This document shows positions 5,623 through 16,547 of a DNA stretch of 36,785 nucleotides, piece by piece; within the stretch, counting starts at the first letter, position 1; the number at the start of each line of letters is the position of its first letter. The notes below the pieces were generated by a model, which worked only from the letters and a program-made list of their open reading frames with translations, had not been told where the DNA came from and searched no databases. The stretch is from Candidatus Thioglobus autotrophicus (GTDB lineage: Bacteria > Pseudomonadota > Gammaproteobacteria > PS1 > Pseudothioglobaceae). Where the stretch lies: positions 1-36,785 of the forward strand of contig JAKUUR010000016.1 in the NCBI GenBank assembly GCA_022448455.1. Direction: 5' to 3'. The translations under genes and the position numbers were made by a program.

Positions 5623-5757
5623 CTCTAAAAGTTGTTATGGGAAATACATAAATTTTACATAAATAATAGAACTATCTCTAACAAAGCTGTCGTTTAAGTT
5701 GTTTTCAATATTGATAATAGAGCTAGACAATATGCGAAAAAATATTAATTGATAGTA

Positions 5758-5763
5758 TATAAT
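5758..5763 (+). promoter_or_regulatory. -10 box for tRNA-Leu
   Basis: TATAAT at 5758-5763 lies 23 bases upstream of the mature tRNA 5' end, which leaves a short leader for RNase P processing. No convincing -35 is present at 16-18 bases. Confidence 0.5.
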
Positions 5764-5786
5764 TTCTGGTTCTTGACGTCCCCTAA

Positions 5787-5874
5787 GCCCGGGTGGTGAA
5801 ATTGGTAGACACACAGGACTTAAAATCCTGCGGCTTTAACGGCCGTGCCGGTTCGATTCCGGCCCCGGGCACCA
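5787..5874 (+). tRNA. tRNA-Leu (anticodon UAA)
   Basis: The acceptor arms gcccggg (5787-5793) and cccgggc (5864-5870) pair fully, followed by discriminator A and an encoded CCA. The anticodon stem cagga/tcctg encloses the loop cttaaaa, with the anticodon TAA at 5821-5823. A long variable arm (cggctttaacggccg region) is typical of class II tRNA-Leu. The T arm gccgg-ttcgatt-ccggc is intact. The gene was the probable integration site of the downstream selO insert, because its last 16 bases recur at 8029-8044. Confidence 0.98.
5859..5874 (+). repeat. Left attachment-like repeat (tRNA-Leu 3' end)
   Basis: The 16 bases ccggccccgggcacca end the tRNA gene and occur again, identical, at 8029-8044 in the same orientation. 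Flanking bases differ on both sides. Direct duplication of a tRNA 3' end is the usual mark left by tyrosine-recombinase integration. Confidence 0.8.
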
Positions 5875-5889
5875 CATTACTTATCTCAT

Positions 5890-5913
5890 AGACTTCTTCG
5901 GAAGTCTTTTTTT
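5890..5913 (+). terminator. Intrinsic terminator after tRNA-Leu
   Basis: Stem agacttc (5890-5896) and gaagtct (5901-5907) closes a ttcg tetraloop and is followed by six T. It is placed to end the tRNA-Leu transcript before selO. Confidence 0.9.
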
Positions 5914-5986
5914 GTCCAAAAAAAAAGACTTTTTAGCTATGTGGCATCCCCTAGATACAATAATTTTGTTGATATAAAATAACTGT

Positions 5987-7717
5987 ATGATAAATAAACT
6001 ATCCCAGGAAGTCTTTCCAACAATCGAAACACTCGACGATCTCGCAAAGTTAGTTGACTATTCGCTCATTGATACTCTCAATTGCGACCCTGATGCTAAA
6101 GAAAACGGAGTCGATCACGAGCCGAGACAAGTTTTCACTGGTCACTATGTCCCCGTCAATCCCACGCCAATAAAAGACCCCGAGTACGTCACGCATAGTA
6201 AAAACTTTTTTCGCGATCTTGATTTTTCAGACAAACTGGCGCAATCAAACGATTTTGTTCGTATGTTTTCTGGTGACACTTCACATGTTCCAAATCCGAT
6301 GCGCACAGCTGGATGGGCGACTGGATATGCGCTTTCTATCTTTGGCACCGAATACTATCAGCAATGCCCATTCCAAACTGGCAACGGATATGGCGATGGT
6401 CGCGCAGTTTCTGTAGTTGAGGCTGTCATCAACGGTCGACGCTGGGAAATGCAGCTAAAAGGTGGCGGTCGAACACCGTATTGCCGCGGTGCAGATGGTC
6501 GTGCCGTCCTGCGCTCGAGCGTCCGCGAGTTCCTAGCTCAGGAGTATATGCATGCACTCGGAGTTCCAACGTCTCGATCTCTAAGTTTGTACGTTTCGAA
6601 AACAGAGAAAGTCAATCGACCATGGTATTCAGAGGGTTCGCGCTCGATGGATCCTGATGTACTTGTATCAGAGGCAGTCGCCATCTCGACGCGCGTTGCA
6701 CCGTCGTTCATTCGAGTTGGACAACTCGAACTCTTCAGTCGCCGTGCCCGCAAGAATGAACATCCAAAAGCGATGGAAGAGCTCGAGATGATTGTGTTGC
6801 ACTTGATCGATCGTGAGTACGCTAACGTCATCGACAAAAAACTAAACACTGCCGAAAAAGTGGTGTTGCTCGCACGCGAGTTCCGCGGCCGCCTTACGTC
6901 GCTTGTAGCCAACTGGATCCGCGTCGGCTACTGTCAGGGAAATTTTAATAGTGACAATTGCGCGGTTGGTGGTTTTACACTCGATTACGGCCCATTCGGA
7001 TTCTGTGATGAGTTCAACCCGCAGTACCAGCCTTGGTCGGGTGGCGGAAATCACTTCTCTTTTCTGAACCAACCAGAGGCAGCCGAACGCAACTTCGACA
7101 CGTTTTGCAAGGCATTGCAGCCCTTGCTTACATCGCATCAGAGCTATCTACAACAGTTAGACGAAATTCGAAATGGCTTTTCAAAAGTAATGCAAACACA
7201 AATGGAAAAGATGTGGACTGCCAAACTTGGACTTAGTACTTTTGATGCGGCGCTGTTCAATGAACTAGTAACGCTCATGGTACAAACTCCTGTTGATTAC
7301 ACCATCTTCTTCCGTGAGCTTTCGATGGTACCTGACGACATTGTTCCACTCAAAAAAAGCTTCTACGAGAGTCCAACGTCGGAAGGAATGGACAAGCGCT
7401 GGTCTGAGTGGCTTATAAAATGGAAGCTACTCAGCGACAGCTCGACCAACGTGAATACTACTGCGCCCCACTCTTGTAAAGAGCTCTCTAAGCAGATGAG
7501 ACTCGTCAACCCAAAATACAGTTTGCGAGAGTGGTTCGTTATGCCTGCGTATCAGCAAGCAACCGAGAGGAACTACTCTCTAGTTCGAGAATTGCAAGAT
7601 ATCATAACACAACCTTACGCAGAGCAGTCTAAGGACGTGGAAGAGAAATACTACAGATTAAAACCATCTGAACTCTTTGATATTGGTGGATTATCGCAAT
7701 ATAGTTGCTCATCTTGA
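5987..7717 (+). CDS. selO: SelO-family protein adenylyltransferase (YdiU/UPF0061), algal-like form
   Basis: SelO proteins have a protein-kinase fold with a flipped ATP and transfer AMP to Ser, Thr or Tyr of target proteins; in known cases they act in redox stress. Visible residues: Lys158 in WEMQLKGGG, the REF motif in [11 protein letters not shown], Asp323-Asn324 in NFNSDN (catalytic base and metal ligand) and Asp333 in LDYGPFGF. The C-terminus ends SCSS with Cys574 at the place of the selenocysteine of human SelO. The wording of many motifs ([33 protein letters not shown], the [10 protein letters not shown] segment) matches my memory of algal and protist SelO better than the usual bacterial form. 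Base composition is unlike the neighbours, and it is the only gene of the tRNA-bounded insert. The ATG at 5987 is supported by family-like sequence from residue ~45 on. Confidence 0.92.
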
Positions 7718-8028
7718 TTTCTCTAAAAACAGATTGGAAAGATTTGGTGGGACACTGGCATGTTAGTGGCCTGATATTCATCAAAAAATAGTCATAGAGC
7801 AAAACTTTCAAGTGGCATAAGCATTAAATAATTAGTTTATATTTAATACAAATAAATTAATTGATCGATTAGCACAACGAAATCAAACATGATTGTGTTA
7901 TGATTATCGTAAATTAGACATTGCCAAAAAAGATAAAAAAGAAACAATCTGTACCTAACCCCGTACCCAATTTTTTTAAAACAAATATTTTTATATATAA
8001 ATCAGTTAGTTATAAAACTTAGTAGGTG
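7718..8028. other. A+T-rich non-coding tail of the island
   Basis: From the selO stop to the second att-like repeat I see no supported gene. Short frames here lack ribosome sites and family resemblance. The one notable element is a pair of GTACC words at 7951-7967. The stretch may hold old recombination or regulatory sites of the lost element. Confidence 0.5.
7951..7968. repeat. Paired GTACC words near the right att-like repeat
   Basis: GTACC occurs at 7951-7955 and 7963-7967, 12 bases apart, within the only G+C-containing block of this A+T-rich tail. From memory, spaced GTAC words occur beside the attachment sites of P4-type integrase islands, so these could be arm-type binding sites. This is an inference from position and wording. 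Confidence 0.35.
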
Positions 8029-8044
8029 CCGGCCCCGGGCACCA
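8029..8044 (+). repeat. Right attachment-like repeat (copy of tRNA-Leu 3' end)
   Basis: The 16 bases ccggccccgggcacca are identical to 5859-5874 and in the same orientation. Here there is no tRNA body upstream, so this is a stranded 3' end. With the preceding ggtg the copy can also fold (ggtgcc against ggcacc). Confidence 0.8.
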
Positions 8045-8053
8045 AATCGACTT

Positions 8054-9475
8054 CTATAACACTTTCCCAGGATTCATGATATTGTTTGGATCAATGGTTT
8101 TTTTAATCTCTCTCATGAGTTTTAATTCAACATGTGATTTGTACTTTTTAAGTTCTTGTTTTTTTGCTAATCCAACACCGTGTTCAGCACTGAAACTACC
8201 ATCTAATTTTGCAGTAATATCATTAATATTGGTTTTGATTTCAGTCTTTTTATCCAAAAAATTATCAGTGTCACCGTCTTCAGGCTCGAACAAGTAATAA
8301 TGGATATTGCCATCGCCGATATGGCCAAATGCAAACACTCTCCCGAGTTCGCAAAATTCGTTACAAAATCTTGTCGCCTTAGTAATAAACTCAGGCACTA
8401 GAGACACAGGTACGGATACATCAAAAGTGATAAAAGCCCCAAGGCGCCTCAAAACCTCACTTAATGTCTCACGCAAACGCCAAAGCTGTGCCGCTTGAGT
8501 TTCGCTGCTAGCGATAACTGCGTCTATGGCAATGCCATCTACAAATGCAGCTTCCAGCACACTTTCTAATAGAGACTGAAGGTTCGCATCCTGACGACTA
8601 GATGAGAGTTCTACCAGTGCATAATGTTGATATTTTTGACTAAAAACATCTTCTAGATCCGTTTGCTCAATAAGAGTTTCAATACAAGCTCTATCCATGT
8701 ATTCAAAAGCAGTAATATTATCTCCACTTAATTCTCGCAGTTTAGCTAAGAGCTTTGTCGTTGACGCTAAATCCGACATTGCTACAAGTGATGTGGCTTT
8801 ATCAACAGGCAAAGGAAATAGCTTTAACACAGCTTTAGTAATAATACCCAGTGTGCCTTCAGCACCAAGAAAGAGTTGTTTCAAATCATAGCCAGTATTA
8901 TCTTTTCTTAAGCGTCGCAATCCGCTCATAATAGTACCATCGGGCAATACTACCTCTAAGCCCAACACCAGTTCTTTCGCATTACCATAACGTAATACCG
9001 CCGTACCTCCAGCATTAGTTGATAGATTGCCCCCAATTTGACAAGAACCTTCAGCAGCTAGGCTAAGAGGAAACATGCGACCGACATCTCTCGCAGCGTT
9101 TTGAACTTCAGATAAAATACAGCCGGCTTCAAGCGTCATGGTGTAATTAATTGGATCAATATCTATGATTTTGTTCATTCGCTCCAAGGAAATAACAACT
9201 TCTAAACCAGATTTACTGGGGACACTGCCACCAACTAAGCCAGTATTACCACCTTGCGGAACAATACCAATACAAGCTTCATTACATAAGGTTACGATGG
9301 CTGAAACCATTTCGCTATTAAGTGGTTTTAATATCAGTGGCGACAAGCCATGGAATAAACCACGTGCATCATTAACATAGGAGTTCATATGCGAAGTGTC
9401 TTCAATATAGTTTCGGACTCCTACAATCGCTTTAAGTCGGTCAATAATTTCAACAGGATGGCTTGAGGTAGTCAT
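8054..9475 (-). CDS. FAD-binding oxidoreductase, D-2-hydroxyglutarate / D-lactate / glycolate dehydrogenase type
   Basis: This family (GlcD/D2HGDH, COG0277) oxidises D-2-hydroxyacids with FAD. The 473-residue protein has the PCMH FAD-binding domain with GIVPQGGNTGLVGGSVP (pyrophosphate loop), then EGSCQIGGNLSTNAGG and LFLGAEGTLGIIT. The C-terminal FAD-oxidase domain shows FGHIGDGNIHYYL, whose histidines bind metal in D2HGDH enzymes, and ends SAEHGVGL...IMNPGKVL. It is a single-polypeptide form; no GlcE or GlcF partner lies nearby. The exact substrate cannot be settled from sequence; 2-hydroxyglutarate, lactate and glycolate are all possible. It stands alone on the minus strand, beside the right end of the selO insert. 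Confidence 0.9.
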   Translation of the reverse strand: MTTSSHPVEIIDRLKAIVGVRNYIEDTSHMNSYVNDARGLFHGLSPLILKPLNSEMVSAIVTLCNEACIGIVPQGGNTGLVGGSVPSKSGLEVVISLERMNKIIDIDPINYTMTLEAGCILSEVQNAARDVGRMFPLSLAAEGSCQIGGNLSTNAGGTAVLRYGNAKELVLGLEVVLPDGTIMSGLRRLRKDNTGYDLKQLFLGAEGTLGIITKAVLKLFPLPVDKATSLVAMSDLASTTKLLAKLRELSGDNITAFEYMDRACIETLIEQTDLEDVFSQKYQHYALVELSSSRQDANLQSLLESVLEAAFVDGIAIDAVIASSETQAAQLWRLRETLSEVLRRLGAFITFDVSVPVSLVPEFITKATRFCNEFCELGRVFAFGHIGDGNIHYYLFEPEDGDTDNFLDKKTEIKTNINDITAKLDGSFSAEHGVGLAKKQELKKYKSHVELKLMREIKKTIDPNNIMNPGKVL

Positions 9476-9514
9476 TTAAGTAGGTATTTTTCTTCTGGCA
9501 GACAATTTAGAACT

Positions 9515-9542
9515 AGTATACCTATAAAGGATAAAAGTCCAA
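9515..9542 (-). promoter_or_regulatory. Possible promoter of the FAD dehydrogenase gene
   Basis: On the minus strand TATACT (complement of 9515-9520) is preceded at 16 bases by TTGGAC (complement of 9537-9542). The match is good at -10 and only partial at -35. The leader would be about 30 bases. Confidence 0.35.
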
Positions 9543-9649
9543 ATTTCGTTTGATGTGTGAGGGAGAGTTAGTTAATATAATTCAACTCGAGTTATTAGAA
9601 AAAAACGAAAAAAAAATTAACCTTAAAAAAAATAAGTGTAGTATTTGTA

Positions 9650-9676
9650 ATTGTTAACAATAAAAAAAAAGTTAAC
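9650..9676. promoter_or_regulatory. Possible operator: paired GTTAAC palindromes upstream of the permease
   Basis: attgttaacaat (9650-9661) is a perfect 12-bp palindrome. A second GTTAAC lies at 9671-9676, inside aaagttaacaaacttt, which is itself an inverted repeat. The pair sits about 90-110 bases before the permease start, where a regulator could bind. The region is very A+T-rich, so chance is not excluded. The rest of the 287-base gap holds only A/T runs and the strong ribosome site of the permease. Confidence 0.35.
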
Positions 9677-9762
9677 AAACTTTATGTATTTTTTTTTATA
9701 CAAAATAATAAAGTTAGGAGAGAAAGTTATTTATTTATCAATAAATCAAAAGGAGAAAAATT

Positions 9763-11136
9763 ATGAGCGATTCAGAATTAATTTATGAGCTCGAGGCAGA
9801 TCCACCAGCTGCTGAAAAGTTCTTTGCCGCACTGCAACATGTGTTGGCAAGTTTTGTCGGTATCATCACACCGACATTAATTATTGGTGGCGTACTTGGG
9901 TTGGGTGATCATGTGCCTTACCTCATCAGTATGGCATTGATGGTTTCTGGAGTCGGTACGATTATCCAAGCGAAAAAGCCAATGAACATTGGAGCTGGTA
10001 TGATCTGTATTCAAGGCACGAGCTTTGCTTTTTTAAGCTCCGTTCTGGCAGCCGGTTTTATTGCTAAAGCACAAGGTGGTGGCCCAGAGGAAATACTCGC
10101 TATGATTATGGGTGTATGTTTCTTGGGAGCCTTCATTGAAATTGGTCTGAGTCAAGTTTTACCTCAACTAAAAAGACTCATTACGCCTTTAGTTACTGGC
10201 ACAGTAATTACTATTATCGGTGTTAGTTTAATTAAAGTTGGAATGACTGATTTAGCTGGCGGACAGTGGTTGCTAGATAATAAACCGGAATTTTGGGGTT
10301 CTTTATCTAATCTAGGTCTTGGCTTCTTGGTACTGATTTCTATTATTATTTTGAATCGTTCAAGTAATCAATGGCTTCGCTTGTCCTCGATTGTTCTTGG
10401 CTTAGTGATAGGCTTCATTGTTGCACTAATGATGGGTAAAGTGAACACTAGTGCAATATTTGCGGTGCAAGAGGTGATTAGTGTCCCTATACCTTTTAGG
10501 TATGGCTTCAACTTTGATATTATTGCCTTCATTCCGATAGCTTTAATTTATGTCATTACTGCCATTGAATCATCTGGCGATATTACTGCTAACTGTATGA
10601 TATCGAAGCAAGATGTCAAAGGAGAGAGCTACATTAATCGGATTAAAAATGGTGTACTTGGTGACGGTGTTAATTCAGCAATAGCTGCTGTGTTTAATAC
10701 TTTCCCTAACACCACTTTTAGCCAAAATAACGGTGTCATTCAACTCACTGGTATTGCTAGTCGTCATGTGGGTGTTTGGGTTGGTATTATTCTTATACTA
10801 ATGGGTTTGTTTCCTCATATAGGTTCTCTACTGAGAGCTATGCCTAATCCGGTATTGGGTGGTGCAACTATCGTTATGTTTGGTACCGTCGCTATTGCAG
10901 GTATAAAGATTCTTGCTACTGTGAATATGAATCGTCGAAACATGCTTATATTAGCTGTTTCCTTTGGTATGGGCATAGGTGTTCTGTTGGTTCCTCAATT
11001 TGCAGGTGCCTTGGCAAATAATATTGGCGGTACATTTGGTAAGCTCATGGGTAGTATCTTTAGTTCTGCGATTACTACTGGCGGTCTTACGGTTCTTATT
11101 TTGAGCGCTATTATGGGTGAAAAAGTAGAAGACTAA
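9763..11136 (+). CDS. NCS2-family purine (xanthine/urate/uracil) permease
   Basis: A polytopic inner membrane carrier of the nucleobase:cation symporter-2 family, 457 residues with 12-14 hydrophobic segments. Family motifs known from the E. coli xanthine permeases are present: His26 in LQHVLASF, IQGTSFAFL, AIESSGDITAN (glutamate of TM8) and SQNNGVIQLTGIASRHVG (the NCS2 signature). These resemble the XanQ/XanP/UacT branch more than UraA, so xanthine or urate is the likeliest substrate, but this is inference. A strong aaggag ribosome site precedes the ATG. It heads a plus-strand run of uptake genes, though a 216-base gap with its own promoter-like box separates it from the ABC importer. Confidence 0.92.
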   Translation: MSDSELIYELEADPPAAEKFFAALQHVLASFVGIITPTLIIGGVLGLGDHVPYLISMALMVSGVGTIIQAKKPMNIGAGMICIQGTSFAFLSSVLAAGFIAKAQGGGPEEILAMIMGVCFLGAFIEIGLSQVLPQLKRLITPLVTGTVITIIGVSLIKVGMTDLAGGQWLLDNKPEFWGSLSNLGLGFLVLISIIILNRSSNQWLRLSSIVLGLVIGFIVALMMGKVNTSAIFAVQEVISVPIPFRYGFNFDIIAFIPIALIYVITAIESSGDITANCMISKQDVKGESYINRIKNGVLGDGVNSAIAAVFNTFPNTTFSQNNGVIQLTGIASRHVGVWVGIILILMGLFPHIGSLLRAMPNPVLGGATIVMFGTVAIAGIKILATVNMNRRNMLILAVSFGMGIGVLLVPQFAGALANNIGGTFGKLMGSIFSSAITTGGLTVLILSAIMGEKVED

Positions 11137-11156
11137 AATATTCTTTATAAAAAAAA

Positions 11157-11179
11157 GGGGGTAGCTTATTGTTACCCCC
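11157..11179 (+). terminator. G+C hairpin after the purine permease
   Basis: gggggta (11157-11163) pairs perfectly with taccccc (11173-11179) around a 9-base loop. It follows a run of A but has no T run on the plus strand, so it is not a standard terminator in the direction of the permease. It may act as an mRNA end stabiliser or weak terminator. Confidence 0.4.
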
Positions 11180-11322
11180 GATATTGCTAAATATATATTT
11201 TCAAAATATTATTATTTATTTTTTTTCAGAAGTCCTTTCGTATATTTGATATATAGAAACTGGTTCAATTTCTTCTCGACGCCTCTAGTCTAAGAAAACA
11301 AACTAACAAACTAAAAAGTAAC

Positions 11323-11328
11323 TATAAT
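11323..11328 (+). promoter_or_regulatory. -10 box for the polyamine-type ABC operon
   Basis: TATAAT at 11323-11328 lies 24 bases upstream of the ATPase ATG. No clear -35 hexamer stands 16-18 bases upstream, which may mean that an activator is needed. Confidence 0.45.
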
Positions 11329-11352
11329 AGTTTTCTTTGAGATTTTAAAGAT

Positions 11353-12441
11353 ATGCCTGAAACAGAACCTGTAGTACAGTTTGAAAACGTACAAAAAAGT
11401 TATGACGGTGAAATTCTTGTTGTTAAAGATTTCAACTTAGATGTTGCTGCTGGTGAATTTGTAACAATGCTAGGGCCATCTGGCTCTGGCAAAACTACTT
11501 GCTTAATGATGCTGGCTGGATTTGAGCCCGTAACCAACGGCAATATTAACTTAAAAGGCAAACCCATAAACAATGTACCACCGCACAAACGTGGTATTGG
11601 AATGGTTTTTCAAAACTATGCCCTCTTCCCTCACATGACTGTTGCAGAGAACTTAGCTTTCCCTCTGGAAGTTCGCAAAATAGGAAAATCTGAAAGAGAA
11701 GAGAAAGTTAAACAGATACTAGATATGGTTCAACTAGGAGGGTTTGGTAATAGGCGACCTATGCAATTATCAGGAGGCCAACAACAACGTGTTGCAGTAG
11801 CTCGATCTCTTATTTTTGACCCTGACCTAGTTCTGATGGACGAGCCTTTAGGGGCGCTTGATAAAAACCTGCGTGAACAGATGCAATATGAAATCAAACA
11901 TCTTCACGAAAATCTCGGTTTAACAGTAATCTATGTCACCCATGATCAAACTGAAGCGCTTACCATGTCTAATCGTATTGCTGTTTTTGATGATGGTATT
12001 GTCCAACAATGTTCTACACCAGAAATCCTTTATGAAAGACCTGAGAATGCCTTTGTAGCGAATTTTATCGGTGAAAACAACCGTTTAATGGGTACCGTAG
12101 AAGCAATCAATGGTGACCAAGTAACCGTTAAAACAGATTCTGGCGATATCGTAGTAGCAACTAAAATCAATGTCAACAGTGTCGGCGATCGCGCCACATT
12201 GTCACTTCGCCCAGAACGCATTTTTGTTTCACCGACGAAGGGCAGAACACCAAACACTTATTCAGCCAAGGTAGAGGAGTTAATCTACCACGGCGACCAT
12301 ATTCGCACACGCTTCAGTGTGTGTGGACACGACGATTTTATCGTCAAAATTCCAAATTCAATCGATAACGTAAGCCTTCAAGAAGGCAAGCAAGTTAATA
12401 TCGGTTGGATGCCGGAAGATTGTCTGGCTCTTGATGGATAG
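11353..12441 (+). CDS. potA: Polyamine-type ABC importer, ATP-binding protein
   Basis: The ATPase that powers import of spermidine/putrescine-like substrates. Motifs in order: Walker A GPSGSGKTT (near residue 44), Q-loop in MVFQNYALFPHMTV, signature LSGGQQQR, Walker B LVLMDEPLGALD and switch histidine in VTHDQTEA. A C-terminal TOBE-like domain follows the FIGENNRL segment, as in PotA. The 362-residue length is close to E. coli PotA (378). It is the first gene of a four-gene importer operon; the binding-protein gene follows after 32 bases. The ligand is assigned by family and could be another cationic amine. Confidence 0.9.
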   Translation: MPETEPVVQFENVQKSYDGEILVVKDFNLDVAAGEFVTMLGPSGSGKTTCLMMLAGFEPVTNGNINLKGKPINNVPPHKRGIGMVFQNYALFPHMTVAENLAFPLEVRKIGKSEREEKVKQILDMVQLGGFGNRRPMQLSGGQQQRVAVARSLIFDPDLVLMDEPLGALDKNLREQMQYEIKHLHENLGLTVIYVTHDQTEALTMSNRIAVFDDGIVQQCSTPEILYERPENAFVANFIGENNRLMGTVEAINGDQVTVKTDSGDIVVATKINVNSVGDRATLSLRPERIFVSPTKGRTPNTYSAKVEELIYHGDHIRTRFSVCGHDDFIVKIPNSIDNVSLQEGKQVNIGWMPEDCLALDG

Positions 12442-12473
12442 AGCTCTGGCATTTTTTACTTTAGGAGAAAAAT

Positions 12474-13571
12474 ATGAAAAAAGTAATAACAAAAACTCTG
12501 ATTGCAGGAGCTATATCAGCAGCGATGTTGGCTGGCGCAGCGCAAGCAGCTGTAACTTTGGTTTCTTGGGGTGGTGGCTACTCTGCATCGCAACAAAAAG
12601 CCTACATTGATACCTATTCCTCTGGTGAGGTAAATATGATTAGTTACAATGGTGGTTTAGGTGAGGTTCGTGCTCAAGTTGAGTCAGGTAACGTTCTATG
12701 GGATATCGTCGACGTTCTTCCATCTCAAGCTCGTACGGGTTGTGATGAAGGTCTATTTGAAGAACTAGATCGTAGTTTATTCCTTCCTGCACCCGATGGC
12801 ACACCGATGGATGAGGACCTCTTGGTTGATGTACCAAATGATTGTGTAGTTCCGCAAATTTGGTGGTCATACGTTCCATTCCACCTAGGTTCTACCTTCA
12901 AAGGTGAGCAACCTTCTACTATTAATGACTTCTTTGACTTAGAGAAATTCCCAGGAAAGCGTGGTATTCACACTTGGGGAAACGGTATAGTTGAGATGGC
13001 ATTATATGCATCTGGCGTAGCTATTCCTGATATTTATGATGTATTAGATACTCAAGAAGGACAAGATATGGTTTTTGCTAAACTAGATACTATCAAAGAT
13101 GATGTAGTATTTTGGTCTTCAGGTGCAAAACCACTAGATCTAGTCAATTCAGGTGAGGTTTCTATGTCACTAGCATATAACGGCCGTATCGGTGGTGCTG
13201 TTCTAGCTGACGGCGCTGACTATGTTACTGTCTGGGACGGACAAGTTCTTGAAGAGGAATGGTTAGTTCTTGTGACTGGAGCTCCAAACAGAGCTGCAGC
13301 TATTCACTTCTTAATCCATGCTTCTGCCACTGAGCAACAAGCAGGTCAAGCTCGTTGGATCAACTATGCTCCTATGCGTCCATCTGCTCTTCCAATTATG
13401 GAAGCAGGTGAGCCGTGGTTCAATCCAGGTCTTGCAACAGAAGCGAATATCATGGAGCATATGCCTACTACGGATGAGCATATGAAAGGTGGTATCCTTG
13501 CGGATCCTGATTGGTGGGCAGATAATGGTCAAGCGGTAAATGATCGTTATGCAGCTTGGATGGCTAAGTAA
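12474..13571 (+). CDS. potD: Periplasmic polyamine-type binding protein (PotD/PotF-like)
   Basis: The extracytoplasmic receptor of the importer. A signal peptide covers residues 1-25, with cleavage expected after AQA. The mature part starts VTLVSWGGGYSASQQKAYI, the usual opening of this family, and later has IWWSYVPFHLG and SMSLAYNGRIGG, typical of the second lobe. It lacks a lipobox, so it is soluble. Two cysteines (in TGCDEGL and NDCVVP) could form a periplasmic disulphide. A good ribosome site (taggagaaaa) precedes the ATG. A terminator-like hairpin directly after it probably raises its level over the permeases. The polyamine ligand is inferred from family and neighbours. Confidence 0.88.
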   Translation: MKKVITKTLIAGAISAAMLAGAAQAAVTLVSWGGGYSASQQKAYIDTYSSGEVNMISYNGGLGEVRAQVESGNVLWDIVDVLPSQARTGCDEGLFEELDRSLFLPAPDGTPMDEDLLVDVPNDCVVPQIWWSYVPFHLGSTFKGEQPSTINDFFDLEKFPGKRGIHTWGNGIVEMALYASGVAIPDIYDVLDTQEGQDMVFAKLDTIKDDVVFWSSGAKPLDLVNSGEVSMSLAYNGRIGGAVLADGADYVTVWDGQVLEEEWLVLVTGAPNRAAAIHFLIHASATEQQAGQARWINYAPMRPSALPIMEAGEPWFNPGLATEANIMEHMPTTDEHMKGGILADPDWWADNGQAVNDRYAAWMAK

Positions 13572-13616
13572 TAGTCTGACCAATAGACTGGTTTGATTGT
13601 TTAAGCTAGTCTAATA

Positions 13617-13648
13617 AAACAGGTCGGTTTCACTACCGGCCTGTTTTT
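13617..13648 (+). terminator. Intra-operon terminator after the binding protein
   Basis: acaggtcggt (13619-13628) pairs with accggcctgt (13635-13644), ten pairs including one G:U, around a 6-base loop, then five T. It sits between the binding-protein gene and the permease genes. It probably works as a partial terminator, giving many copies of binding protein per transporter. Confidence 0.85.
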
Positions 13649-13700
13649 ATTCTTAGAACTCCTACTGGAATATGTAGGTAGGTAATTTAATAATTATTTT

Positions 13701-15095
13701 ATGAGTAATACTTCTACAATTAATTCTCAAGGACCATTACTAACAAACGATGGTGTCCCCCTTAAAGAAAGCCTTCGTAAATCTCTACGTCGAACAAAGA
13801 TTCGCTCTTTTCTACTGATATTAGTCCCACTCTTATTCGTATTATTATTATTTGTTACTCCAATTGCTCAACTTCTTTCAAGAAGTGTTGATGATATCAA
13901 AATCAATGAGGCGTTTCCACTGACATTTGCTCAGTACGAAGTATGGGAAGATAAGTCCATACTTCCTAGTGAAGAAATGTTTGCTGCAGTGATTAATGAT
14001 ATTAGAATCACTCACAAAATAGAAAACAGTGAAGGTAGAAATATTGGTAAAAATTTACTCGGCAGATCCGGAACTCGAATGACTTATGAGTATTCAGGCT
14101 GGCGGAGTTTATTATTAAAGACAGTCAAAGAAGCTATAAAGGTAGATAAAAAATCAAAAGAAGAAATCAAGCCCTATAAATGGGATGCCCCTTATAAAGA
14201 GAGGATGATCAAAAGAGATAAGCGCTGGGGCAAGGTTGAATTTTGGCAATCACTAGGCGCTATGAAAGACCCCTACACGATGGGCTATTATCTTAATGCA
14301 GTCGATCTAAGATATGACGCCAATAAGAACATTATTCAGAAAGTAGAGTATTTAAGAGTTTATAAAACCATATGGATGAGAACCCTTCAGGTTAGCTTGA
14401 TGGTTACCATTTTTTGCTTAATACTTGCCTATCCTGTTTCATATTTACTGGCAACGTTGCCAATGAGAATCTCAAACATACTGATGATCTGTGTCTTGAT
14501 GCCATTCTGGACATCACTTCTGGTACGAATTGTAGCCTGGATGATTATGCTGCAACAACATGGCGTTATTAACGATACCTTGGTGACTATTCTGCCGTGT
14601 TTCGAAGGAATGGTCAATCTACCATTTTTTGGAGCAACAAATATCGATCTTTGTTTCGGTGATGAGGATCGAATACCGATGATGTATAACTTTACTGGCA
14701 CGATTATTGTGATGACACAAATCCTATTGCCGTTTATGATTTTGCCAATCTATAGTGTTATGAGGGGTATACCACCAAGTTATATGAAGGCCGCTCAGAA
14801 CCTTGGAGCTACTCCTACATGGGCCTTTATTCGTGTCTATATGCCGCAATCTGTACCCGGTATTGGTGCTGGATGCATATTAGTATTTATTGTAGCCATT
14901 GGTTATTACATCACACCAGAGCTTGTTGGTGGAAAAGACGGACTAATGATTGGTAACTTTGTTGCGCGTGAAATGCAACAAACATTGAATTGGGGGCTTG
15001 CTGCTGCTATGGGCACCATGTTATTATTTGCAGTATTAGCGCTCTACTGGGTGTACGACAAGTTTATTGGCATTGATAATTTAAAAATGGGTTAA
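13701..15095 (+). CDS. potB: Polyamine-type ABC importer, permease 1 (PotB-like, long periplasmic loop)
   Basis: A membrane subunit of the importer. One helix near 37-58 is followed by a hydrophilic stretch of about 165 residues (61-225). The core permease begins near TLQVSLMVTIFCLILAYPVSY and carries the ATPase-contact EAA loop MKAAQNLGATPTWAFIRVYMPQ. At 464 residues it is much longer than E. coli PotB (~280); the excess lies in the first external loop. Similar long-loop permeases occur in other marine and alphaproteobacterial polyamine systems, as far as I recall. It begins 129 bases after the binding-protein gene, beyond the terminator, and is 3 bases from permease 2. Confidence 0.88.
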   Translation: MSNTSTINSQGPLLTNDGVPLKESLRKSLRRTKIRSFLLILVPLLFVLLLFVTPIAQLLSRSVDDIKINEAFPLTFAQYEVWEDKSILPSEEMFAAVINDIRITHKIENSEGRNIGKNLLGRSGTRMTYEYSGWRSLLLKTVKEAIKVDKKSKEEIKPYKWDAPYKERMIKRDKRWGKVEFWQSLGAMKDPYTMGYYLNAVDLRYDANKNIIQKVEYLRVYKTIWMRTLQVSLMVTIFCLILAYPVSYLLATLPMRISNILMICVLMPFWTSLLVRIVAWMIMLQQHGVINDTLVTILPCFEGMVNLPFFGATNIDLCFGDEDRIPMMYNFTGTIIVMTQILLPFMILPIYSVMRGIPPSYMKAAQNLGATPTWAFIRVYMPQSVPGIGAGCILVFIVAIGYYITPELVGGKDGLMIGNFVAREMQQTLNWGLAAAMGTMLLFAVLALYWVYDKFIGIDNLKMG

Positions 15096-15098
15096 AAA

Positions 15099-16004
15099 AT
15101 GAGATTTCCTTCTTATACAACACCTCGAGAGAAACTTTGGCACTATTCTTATAGGACATTTTGTGGCCTTGTATTGTTTTTCTTAGTTGCACCACTCATT
15201 GTTGTTATTCCACTATCATTTACTAATTCAGTTTTCCTACAATTTGTCCCTGAAATGAAAATCTTTAGCTTTGAGACTTGGTCTTTTAACTTTGATGGTT
15301 ATGGAACTCGCTGGTACAAAGAAATGCTTGGTATCTGTGATGACAATACAGGAACAACTGTGTGTACAGACAGATGGATGATTGGCATCAAAAATAGTGC
15401 CATCATCGCTGTTTTTGCAACTTTCTTTGCAAGTGTCTTAGGGACTCTCGCAGCGCTTGGTTTATCAAATAAACATATGCCATTTAATCGTTTAATAATG
15501 GCGCTCATGATTTCTCCAATGATTGTGCCTCTTATCATTACTGCAGCCGGAATGTTTTTCTTTTTTGCCAAAGTAAACCTTGTTGCAACGTTACCAGGAT
15601 TAATTATTGCACATACTATCTTAGGAATACCTTTTGTTGTTATAACTGTAACAGCATCTTTAGCAGGATTTGATAACAACTTGATGCGAGCAGCCGCAAA
15701 TCTAGGTGGTAAACCGATTAGGAATTTTTTCAAAATACAGGCTCCACTTATAGCTCCAGGTGTAATATCAGGAGCTCTTTTTGCATTTATCATCTCATTT
15801 GATGAGGTGGTGATTGTCCTCTTTTTAGGTGGACCTGAACAGTACACGCTTCCAAGACAGATGTGGTCTGGAATCCGTAATGAAATCAGCCCAACAATAC
15901 TTGCTGCTGCAACCATTCTGGTTATTTTCTCCATTTTATTGCTTACCACACTTGAAATGCTTCGCCGTCGGTCTGAGCGAATCCGTGGGGTCAGTCCAAA
16001 CTAG
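15099..16004 (+). CDS. potC: Polyamine-type ABC importer, permease 2 (PotC-like)
   Basis: The second membrane subunit, 301 residues with about six helices. The binding-protein-dependent permease signature is seen as MRAAANLGGKPIRNFFKIQAPLIAPG, followed by FIISFDEVVIVLFLGG, characteristic of PotC. Compared with E. coli PotC (264) it has a somewhat longer first external loop containing two cysteines (ICDDNTGTTVC). It starts 3 bases after permease 1, so the two are translationally linked. The gap to ridA is 135 bases with a new -10 box. Confidence 0.9.
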   Translation: MRFPSYTTPREKLWHYSYRTFCGLVLFFLVAPLIVVIPLSFTNSVFLQFVPEMKIFSFETWSFNFDGYGTRWYKEMLGICDDNTGTTVCTDRWMIGIKNSAIIAVFATFFASVLGTLAALGLSNKHMPFNRLIMALMISPMIVPLIITAAGMFFFFAKVNLVATLPGLIIAHTILGIPFVVITVTASLAGFDNNLMRAAANLGGKPIRNFFKIQAPLIAPGVISGALFAFIISFDEVVIVLFLGGPEQYTLPRQMWSGIRNEISPTILAAATILVIFSILLLTTLEMLRRRSERIRGVSPN

Positions 16005-16102
16005 ATTTTTCCTGTTCCTTTTTATAAAATTACTTCTAGATAATATATGGTCTCGTCCATCAATAACTATTAAAGAGTTCTATAAAAAACAATCATCCAG
16101 AA

Positions 16103-16108
16103 TATAAT
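16103..16108 (+). promoter_or_regulatory. -10 box for ridA-recG
   Basis: TATAAT at 16103-16108 lies 31 bases before the ridA ATG. The -35 region is weak. No ribosome site is seen in the short A+T-rich leader. Confidence 0.4.
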
Positions 16109-16139
16109 AAAATCTATTTTATAAATTCAATTTATTATT

Positions 16140-16547
16140 ATGAAAAAACGCATTATTTCGACTGAGAAAGCTCCTGCAGCTGTTGGCACATATTCACAAG
16201 CTGTTGCTGTAACAGGTGGCACTTCAATTTACCTTTCAGGGCAGATTCCTTTAGTCCCGGAAACCATGGAGGTCGTTGAAGGTGACATTGAAACACAAAT
16301 TCACCAAGTATTTAAAAACCTAACAGCTGTCTGCCAAGAAGCTGGAGGCGACTTAAGTAATATCGTTAAACTTAATATCTTTTTGACAGACCTTAATAAC
16401 TTTGCCATTCTCAATGAAATTATGTCAACCTACTTTGACCAACCCTATCCTGCTCGTGCAGCAATCGGGGTAAATGAACTTCCAAAAGGAGTTAGCGTTG
16501 AAATGGATGGTGTCATGGTAATCAATTCTGATCAATATAGTTACTAA
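16140..16547 (+). CDS. ridA: RidA family enamine/imine deaminase
   Basis: RidA hydrolyses reactive enamines such as 2-aminoacrylate, protecting PLP enzymes. The 135-residue protein has the YjgF signature: [20 protein letters not shown], the catalytic Arg106 in YPARAAIGV, and a late glutamate (Glu121) that holds the water. The cysteine that follows the arginine in E. coli RidA is an alanine here, which is common in the family. It lies after the importer operon and 4 bases before recG, so it is probably co-transcribed with recG, but it may also serve the amine-uptake cluster. Confidence 0.95.

Follow-up and report, generated by a model that had tools for sequence, protein, structure and literature searches.

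Gene content of the locus

The DNA analysed here, referred to as the window, is a stretch of 36,785 nucleotides from Candidatus Thioglobus autotrophicus and represents an entire contig (C8) of its genome (G000; 1,706,790 bases in 70 contigs, 95% complete). The genus of this genome is denoted g1, while g3 and g6 are other genera of the same family. In the window, a tRNA-Leu(UAA) gene is followed by selO, a short segment designated X, a second copy of the last 16 bases of the tRNA, and a gene encoding an FAD-linked oxidase, termed FAD dehydrogenase below (Table 1). The only open reading frames (ORFs) of at least 100 aa between the two copies are selO and an antisense ORF of 124 aa that lies within it; selO had been predicted to be the sole gene of the insert (5859–8044), and it is indeed the only long one. 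The 311 bases between selO and the second 16-mer contain no ORF of 100 aa, and an integrase gene is absent from the insert.

Table 1. Features of the tRNA-Leu(UAA) and selO locus, in window coordinates.
Feature	Position	Strand	Evidence
tRNA-Leu(UAA), proposed target, regenerated	5787..5874	+	ARAGORN; Rfam tRNA 60.8 bits
Left 16-base repeat copy, attL-like, tRNA 3′-end	5859..5874	+	Exact match
Segment colinear with g6 tRNA-Leu–selO–spacer locus (G103, G097)	5875..7798	+	DNA identity
Terminator-like hairpin after tRNA	5890..5907	+	1 found versus 2.3 expected by chance
selO, 576 aa, full length	5987..7717	+	ORF; Pfam SelO PF02696
X, 230 bases, 24.8% G+C	7799..8028		No relative found
Right 16-base repeat copy, attR-like, putative displaced recipient tRNA tail	8029..8044	+	Exact match; adjoins FAD dehydrogenase
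FAD-linked oxidase (PF01565/PF02913), proposed old right neighbour of the tRNA	8054..9475	-	Pfam; 92.8% DNA identity to G017, 70.7% to G028

The selO product matches the profile PF02696 at 232.9 bits (cut-off 22.8) from profile position 18 to 463 of 466, an assignment to the SelO family that covers most of the profile, and it matches PDB entry 6eac with an E-value of 2.7e-47. SelO is a protein AMPylase (protein adenylyltransferase) family, and 6eac is one of its members. Another SelO, 38% identical to that of the window, is encoded on contig C21 of the same genome. Judged by its sequence, the cargo is a second, intact SelO of this family and thus a putative AMPylase. The gene appears to be under purifying selection, with dN of 0.030 and dS of 0.171 between G000 and the g6 genome G103. 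Hairpins of the same kind as the one downstream of the tRNA are also found in the corresponding spacers of G103, G101, G094, G093, and G086.

The original prediction put selO blocks at about 57% G+C. This figure is reached by the richest 200 bases (58%; richest 100 bases, 64%), but the gene as a whole has 47.6% G+C and its 500-base blocks do not exceed 51.8%. The composition check proposed at the time did set selO apart, with a third-position G+C of 0.484 versus 0.23–0.36 in the nine neighbouring genes computed. High G+C is nonetheless weak evidence because this type of selO is G+C-rich in most hosts examined: in a scan of public genomes, from which the best 80 of 501 loci were kept, selO had a higher G+C than its flank in 69 of the 80. 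G+C was rejected as proof of recent transfer, even though the third positions of selO stand out here. The idea that selO generally travels with tRNA genes also found no support in these loci (best 80 of 501), in eight of which a tRNA lies no more than 3 kb from selO; among the tRNAs listed for them, only a tRNA-Cys (L190) has its last 15 bases duplicated within the locus. Within the same best 80 of 501, SelO of this type is 69–82% identical across records of Gamma- and Betaproteobacteria, Campylobacterota-type genera, and Planctomycetes, which suggests frequent transfer or some misbinned contigs. An IMG/VR contig (L199, 305–4201) carries a full SelO (PF02696; 73% identical to that of the window) together with phage-like genes and an adjoining ORF that looks tyrosine-integrase-like by eye, perhaps another integrase beside selO.

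Insertion at the 3′-end of tRNA-Leu

The 16-mer CCGGCCCCGGGCACCA occurs as two exact copies on the same strand, at the repeat positions given in Table 1. As originally described, the copies have the same orientation and different flanks, which diverge directly after CCA (CATTACTTAT versus AATCGACTTC) and leave an exact block of 16 bases. With up to three mismatches allowed, these are still the only two sites in the window, where a mean of 0.03 is expected by chance and none of 100 shuffled sequences had two. A 16-mer found at many places in the genome had been named as an observation that would speak against an insertion; exact matches are restricted to these two sites in 1.7 Mb (all 70 contigs), and the reversed pattern, used as a control, gave none. 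A longer ancestral repeat interrupted by an 11-base deletion (GTGCCGG before CCCCGGGCACCA) was considered and dropped, as it gains just about three matching bases.

Empty sites are present in four other members of g1, in which the distance from tRNA-Leu to the FAD-dehydrogenase stop codon is 10 (G028), 9 (G025), 10 (G014), and 7 (G003) bases, as computed from match coordinates on the assumption that the stop codon directly follows the match (the gene of G003 being split over two hits). The right 16-mer of G000 lies 9 bases from this stop. A search with a pattern containing one N found the tRNA tail to be single-copy in each of the four whole genomes. The unique duplication of the 16-mer and the empty sites within g1 make it well supported that the selO-bearing segment is an insertion at the 3′-end of tRNA-Leu, in agreement with the original prediction. 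The empty sites come from less closely related members of g1, since G015, G008, and G027 have no FAD gene beside the tRNA; these three are among the nearest to G000 by flanking genes, which weighs against our preferred explanation. The tRNA-Leu of G015 is 100% identical to that of G000 (query positions 2–95).

A survey of tRNA-Leu in the family covered 48 loci, of which 46 were readable (all except G096 and G100), 18 from g1 and 28 from outside it; for G025, G003, and G014 it covered 1500 bases downstream of the tRNA. Within the stretch examined, selO follows tRNA-Leu in only one of the 18 g1 loci, that of G000. The FAD gene follows it in four of 18 (four of 17 excluding G000), and the remaining 13 of 17 have different neighbours: a permease in eight of the 18 (G027, G022, G024, G023, G010, G006, G004, and G011), potA in two (G015 and G016), and other DNA in G008, G019, and G026. 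The same selO at this site in all relatives, which had likewise been raised as a potential objection, is not seen inside the genus, but it is partly true across the family, in g3 and g6.

Beyond the insert, the interval from tRNA-Leu to ridA (window positions 8054–16547) differs gene by gene within g1 (FAD dehydrogenase, permease, polyamine-type transporter), and in G088, G072, G063, G035, and G031, which belong to other genera, ridA follows tRNA-Leu immediately. By these gene orders, the interval is an insertion hot spot. Genome G060, of the same family, has six copies of the tRNA-Leu 16-mer (contigs C12, C42, C60, C92, and C162), none of them more than about 240 bases from a contig end, perhaps reflecting multiple insertions or a repeated element. 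The 16-mer is also present in at least 120 viral-contig stretches.

Origin of the selO segment

The segment downstream of the tRNA shares 92.9% DNA identity with G103 over 5850–7798 and 96.7% with G097 over 5753–6416, while the flanking proteins of G000 and G103 are 63% (ispA), 73% (ridA), and 68% (recG) identical. Homology to G103 extends as far as 7798, a position in the selO–ridA spacer. The chromosomal order of the donor type is tRNA-Leu, selO, spacer, ridA, and recG. SelO of this type (E ≤ 1e-100) is encoded in 16 of 83 family genomes, G000 included, comprising three of g1 (G000, G019, and G001), nine of g3, and four of g6; a selO fragment at a contig end of G097 (g6) is additional to these 16. 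Among the 28 loci outside g1, selO starts 98–371 bases past tRNA-Leu in nine (G101, G094, G093, G086, G095, G089, G099, G033, and G097), follows an integrase gene in G103, and lies 11.9 kb from tRNA-Leu in G091. Of the eleven contigs concerned, seven continue, with ridA and recG next, and four end; several other loci outside g1 have little DNA past the tRNA (none in G030, 112 bases in G073). The insert was originally viewed as a one-gene element without an integrase. The lack of an integrase still holds, but the insert is not self-contained, as 5875–7798 is colinear with a chromosomal locus of g3 and g6.

In the recG tree (25 of 26 rows, G074 having given none), G000 groups with G015 and G008 (100/99) within the g1 clade (100/100). 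The selO tree (21 of 21 rows) places G000 together with G019 and G103 (100/98). The two phylogenies disagree, in line with a foreign selO, and a foreign, g6-type origin of 5875–7798 is well supported by these sequence comparisons. Genera g3 and g6 are intermixed in the selO tree (four changes each), and with midpoint rooting six rows from other bacteria form a single clade (100/99) among them. From this mixing and the position of the other bacteria, selO has moved more than once, and its long-term residence in g3 and g6 is therefore not implied. The variable arm of the tRNA in the window is of the recipient (g1) type and the spacer of the donor (g6) type, which places the left breakpoint in roughly the 3′-terminal 30 bases of the tRNA.

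Compared in blocks of 144 bases, the selO genes of G000 and G019 show 82–94% identity over 5987–6706, 98% in the block that follows, and 99–100% from 6851 onwards, and the 5′ part of the G000 gene is closer to G103 than to G019. This pattern could reflect either very recent recombination between lineages, giving a mosaic gene, or a chimera in one of the assemblies. The near-identical part (G019 L033, 2333–4159, versus window 6851–7743) spans 864 coding bases, and recG sets G019 and G000 far apart within the genus despite the near-identity of selO. G019 has a further partial selO copy on C16. The selO copies of G019 and G001 lie elsewhere, with no adjoining tRNA of this kind in the stretches read, and that of G001 continues through the spacer into about the first 48 bases of ridA, which points to export from a selO–ridA locus by another route. 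These copies indicate that selO also moves by other routes.

Integrases at tRNA-Leu in related genomes

In G103, the gene order is tRNA-Leu, a tyrosine integrase (PF00589 and DUF6538), repeats, a tRNA tail, 101 bases, selO, and ridA, with an integrase element of 1.5 kb occupying the tRNA. The repeats between the integrase gene and the tail could be arm sites. The tail beside selO has a 19-base match to the native tRNA of G101 and matches the element-side tRNA of G103 itself exactly over 8 bases only, which weighs against our preferred explanation. The single-contig genome G085 has an integrase 58% identical to that of G103, starting about 80 bases past the same tRNA, and ridA was not found in the 15.7 kb downstream of it. 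In G099 and G026, a second, altered copy of tRNA-Leu lies just downstream of the intact tRNA. We read these features of G085, G099, and G026 as probable further footprints of insertion at tRNA-Leu. Given the two integrases and the tRNA copies, this tRNA appears to be targeted repeatedly. The altered copies of G099 (L230) and G026 (L112, near 8045–8173) resemble each other across two genera. Long inverted repeats that include the 3′-end of the tRNA enclose the integrase in both G085 (L378, 4264–5890; 345 bases, 100%) and G103 (L220, 5278–6633; 108 bases, 85%), an arrangement that we consider unusual for a tyrosine-integrase element. In G000 itself, no relative of the G103 integrase was detected at E ≤ 1e-15; its five PF00589 matches are all on other contigs, and two of them look Xer-like by score.

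Segment X is possibly the recombinase arm region of an element. Comparison with family genomes (up to nine candidates scored per genome) gave spacer matches up to 7798 and otherwise short AT-rich matches only, while among 274 genomes of the class (up to two candidates scored per genome) it was found in G000 alone. Matches to phage records were short and weak (six records). A six-frame reading and a comparison with the loci examined showed no recognisable gene remnant by eye and no match, and a repeat-like motif of X had one match in a scan of viral contigs, in an apparent phage tail gene (by eye). No likeness was seen between X and the sequence to the left of the tail in G103, which weighs against the arm reading.

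Proposed mechanism and alternatives

We propose, with a probability of roughly 60%, that an ancestor of this lineage acquired selO on a small circular DNA, which a tyrosine recombinase integrated at the 3′-end of its tRNA-Leu(UAA) gene. The parts of this proposal that can be read from the sequences are the site of insertion, the duplication of 16 bases, the existence of empty sites, and the g6-type origin of 5875–7798. The donor would have had an order like that of G103, namely tRNA-Leu, integrase element, tRNA tail, selO, and ridA. The right arm of the element (X) would then have looped out together with the tail, selO, and a portion of the selO–ridA spacer, a single illegitimate join (7798/7799 in the window) closing the circle. 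Flanking host DNA leaves in a comparable way when phage lambda is excised faultily. The tRNA tail of the circle would serve as its attachment site, and a recombinase from the parent element would place the circle in the recipient tRNA-Leu. This model predicts the observed order of regenerated tRNA, donor flank with selO, join, X, displaced 16-base tail, and old neighbour. No integrase is left here and X matches nothing in the comparisons made, so the enzyme and the circle are steps that we infer, as is the part played by X. The mosaic or chimeric pattern of selO, the mixing of g3 and g6 in the selO tree, and the selO copies of G019 and G001 also weigh against the model.

Donor DNA could instead have entered by transformation or transduction, with a left crossover by homologous recombination in the shared tRNA and a right illegitimate join that happened to fall at a tRNA tail; the tail could also, for example, have come later on an incoming fragment of tRNA tail, FAD gene, and permease anchored in the permease. 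In favour of this course, the tRNA-Leu gene is 92–97% identical to those of six members of other genera (G029, G030, G031, G033, G035, and G036), the selO copies of G019 and G001 show that the gene also arrives without this tRNA, and the FAD gene is itself patchy within the genus. We nevertheless regard this course of events as unlikely: a second tail ending at CCA and adjoining the FAD flank, as in the four empty sites, is expected under the circle model and unforeseen by homologous recombination plus chance, and a similar tail lies beside the integrase in G103.

The retention of both att-like ends with the integrase gone would also suit a larger integrative or mobilisable island in tRNA-Leu that has decayed to selO and X (a CIME-like remnant), the more so as the same tRNA is occupied by the 1.5-kb integrase element in G103 and by an integrase in G085. 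Such decay is quite improbable, however, as the left part of the insert tracks the donor chromosome from the end of the tRNA into the selO–ridA spacer rather than consisting of element DNA, and the six frames of X hold nothing recognisable as the remains of a gene. An error of assembly or binning, in which the left junction fuses the recipient tRNA with a donor contig through the roughly 30 bases common to tRNA-Leu 3′-ends, might be suspected because the assembly consists of 70 contigs, one of which makes up the entire window, and the 3′ part of selO is 99–100% identical to that of G019. We consider it very improbable, since X is continuous with selO and exact identity between the right junction and the tRNA end extends over just 16 bases. 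Sixteen bases are too short for usual assembly overlaps.

The circle model raises the tentative, and at present rather doubtful, possibility that integrase elements residing in tRNA genes routinely pick up the host gene adjoining their attachment site and pass it on to the corresponding tRNA of other genera, the neighbours of a tRNA then moving as a site-matched set. Such events should leave a signature in which donor flank lies next to the tRNA, an element arm lies beyond it, and a tRNA tail closes the insert; the order observed here fits this signature if X is an element arm. Integrase-less tRNA islands are often hard to trace; here the donor type, the locus, the left breakpoint, the internal join, and the right end are all readable, and G103 provides a genome from the donor side in which an integrase neighbours the same gene. 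If the model is true, genes beside tRNA targets would have a simple route for spreading between genera, in addition to cargo within islands, and its signature could be searched for at scale.

Comparison with known systems

In literature on tRNA islands of Thioglobus/SUP05, SelO transfer, and faulty island excision, this locus was not found in the titles or abstract openings listed, and we make no claim that it is unpublished. According to the outline of the Islander principle, tRNA-integrated genomic islands are bounded by a regenerated tRNA and a displaced 3′ fragment, and an integrase is required (PMC4383910). The present insert resembles them in its regenerated tRNA, displaced identical 3′ fragment, and foreign cargo, and an empty site is known; it differs in having no integrase, in its length of 2.2 kb, and in a cargo that is the donor chromosomal flank of the same tRNA (PMC4383910). 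Cis-mobilizable elements (CIMEs), as characterised in PMC5704250, have att-like ends on both sides and no genes for integration or transfer. Both properties are found here, but the left part is host-type DNA, and X, with no match in the family, class, and phage comparisons, gave no sign of descent from an ICE or IME.

The locus also resembles the islands with repeated tRNA ends described for the additive flexible island behind tRNA-Lys of Methylophilaceae, in which repeats of varying number precede islands, whereas one unit lies at tRNA-Leu here and its donor type is known to genus level (PMC10872708). Tycheposons, as presented in the same source, share the tRNA border and the carriage of cargo genes in aquatic bacteria, but have a tyrosine recombinase and a size of 4–200 kb, neither of which applies to this insert of about 2.2 kb (PMC10872708). 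By sequence, the cargo belongs to the same family as the SelO protein adenylyltransferases (PF02696; PDB 6eac). For the marine siphovirus P-SS2, aberrant excision, or specialised transduction, has been put forward as a way of acquiring genes at a tRNA-related site (PMC2784084). Although phage genes are absent here and the mechanism is inferred, the likeness, which extends to phage lambda, is that host DNA beside the attachment site leaves with the element. Small as it is, the locus clearly illustrates a known route of gene movement.
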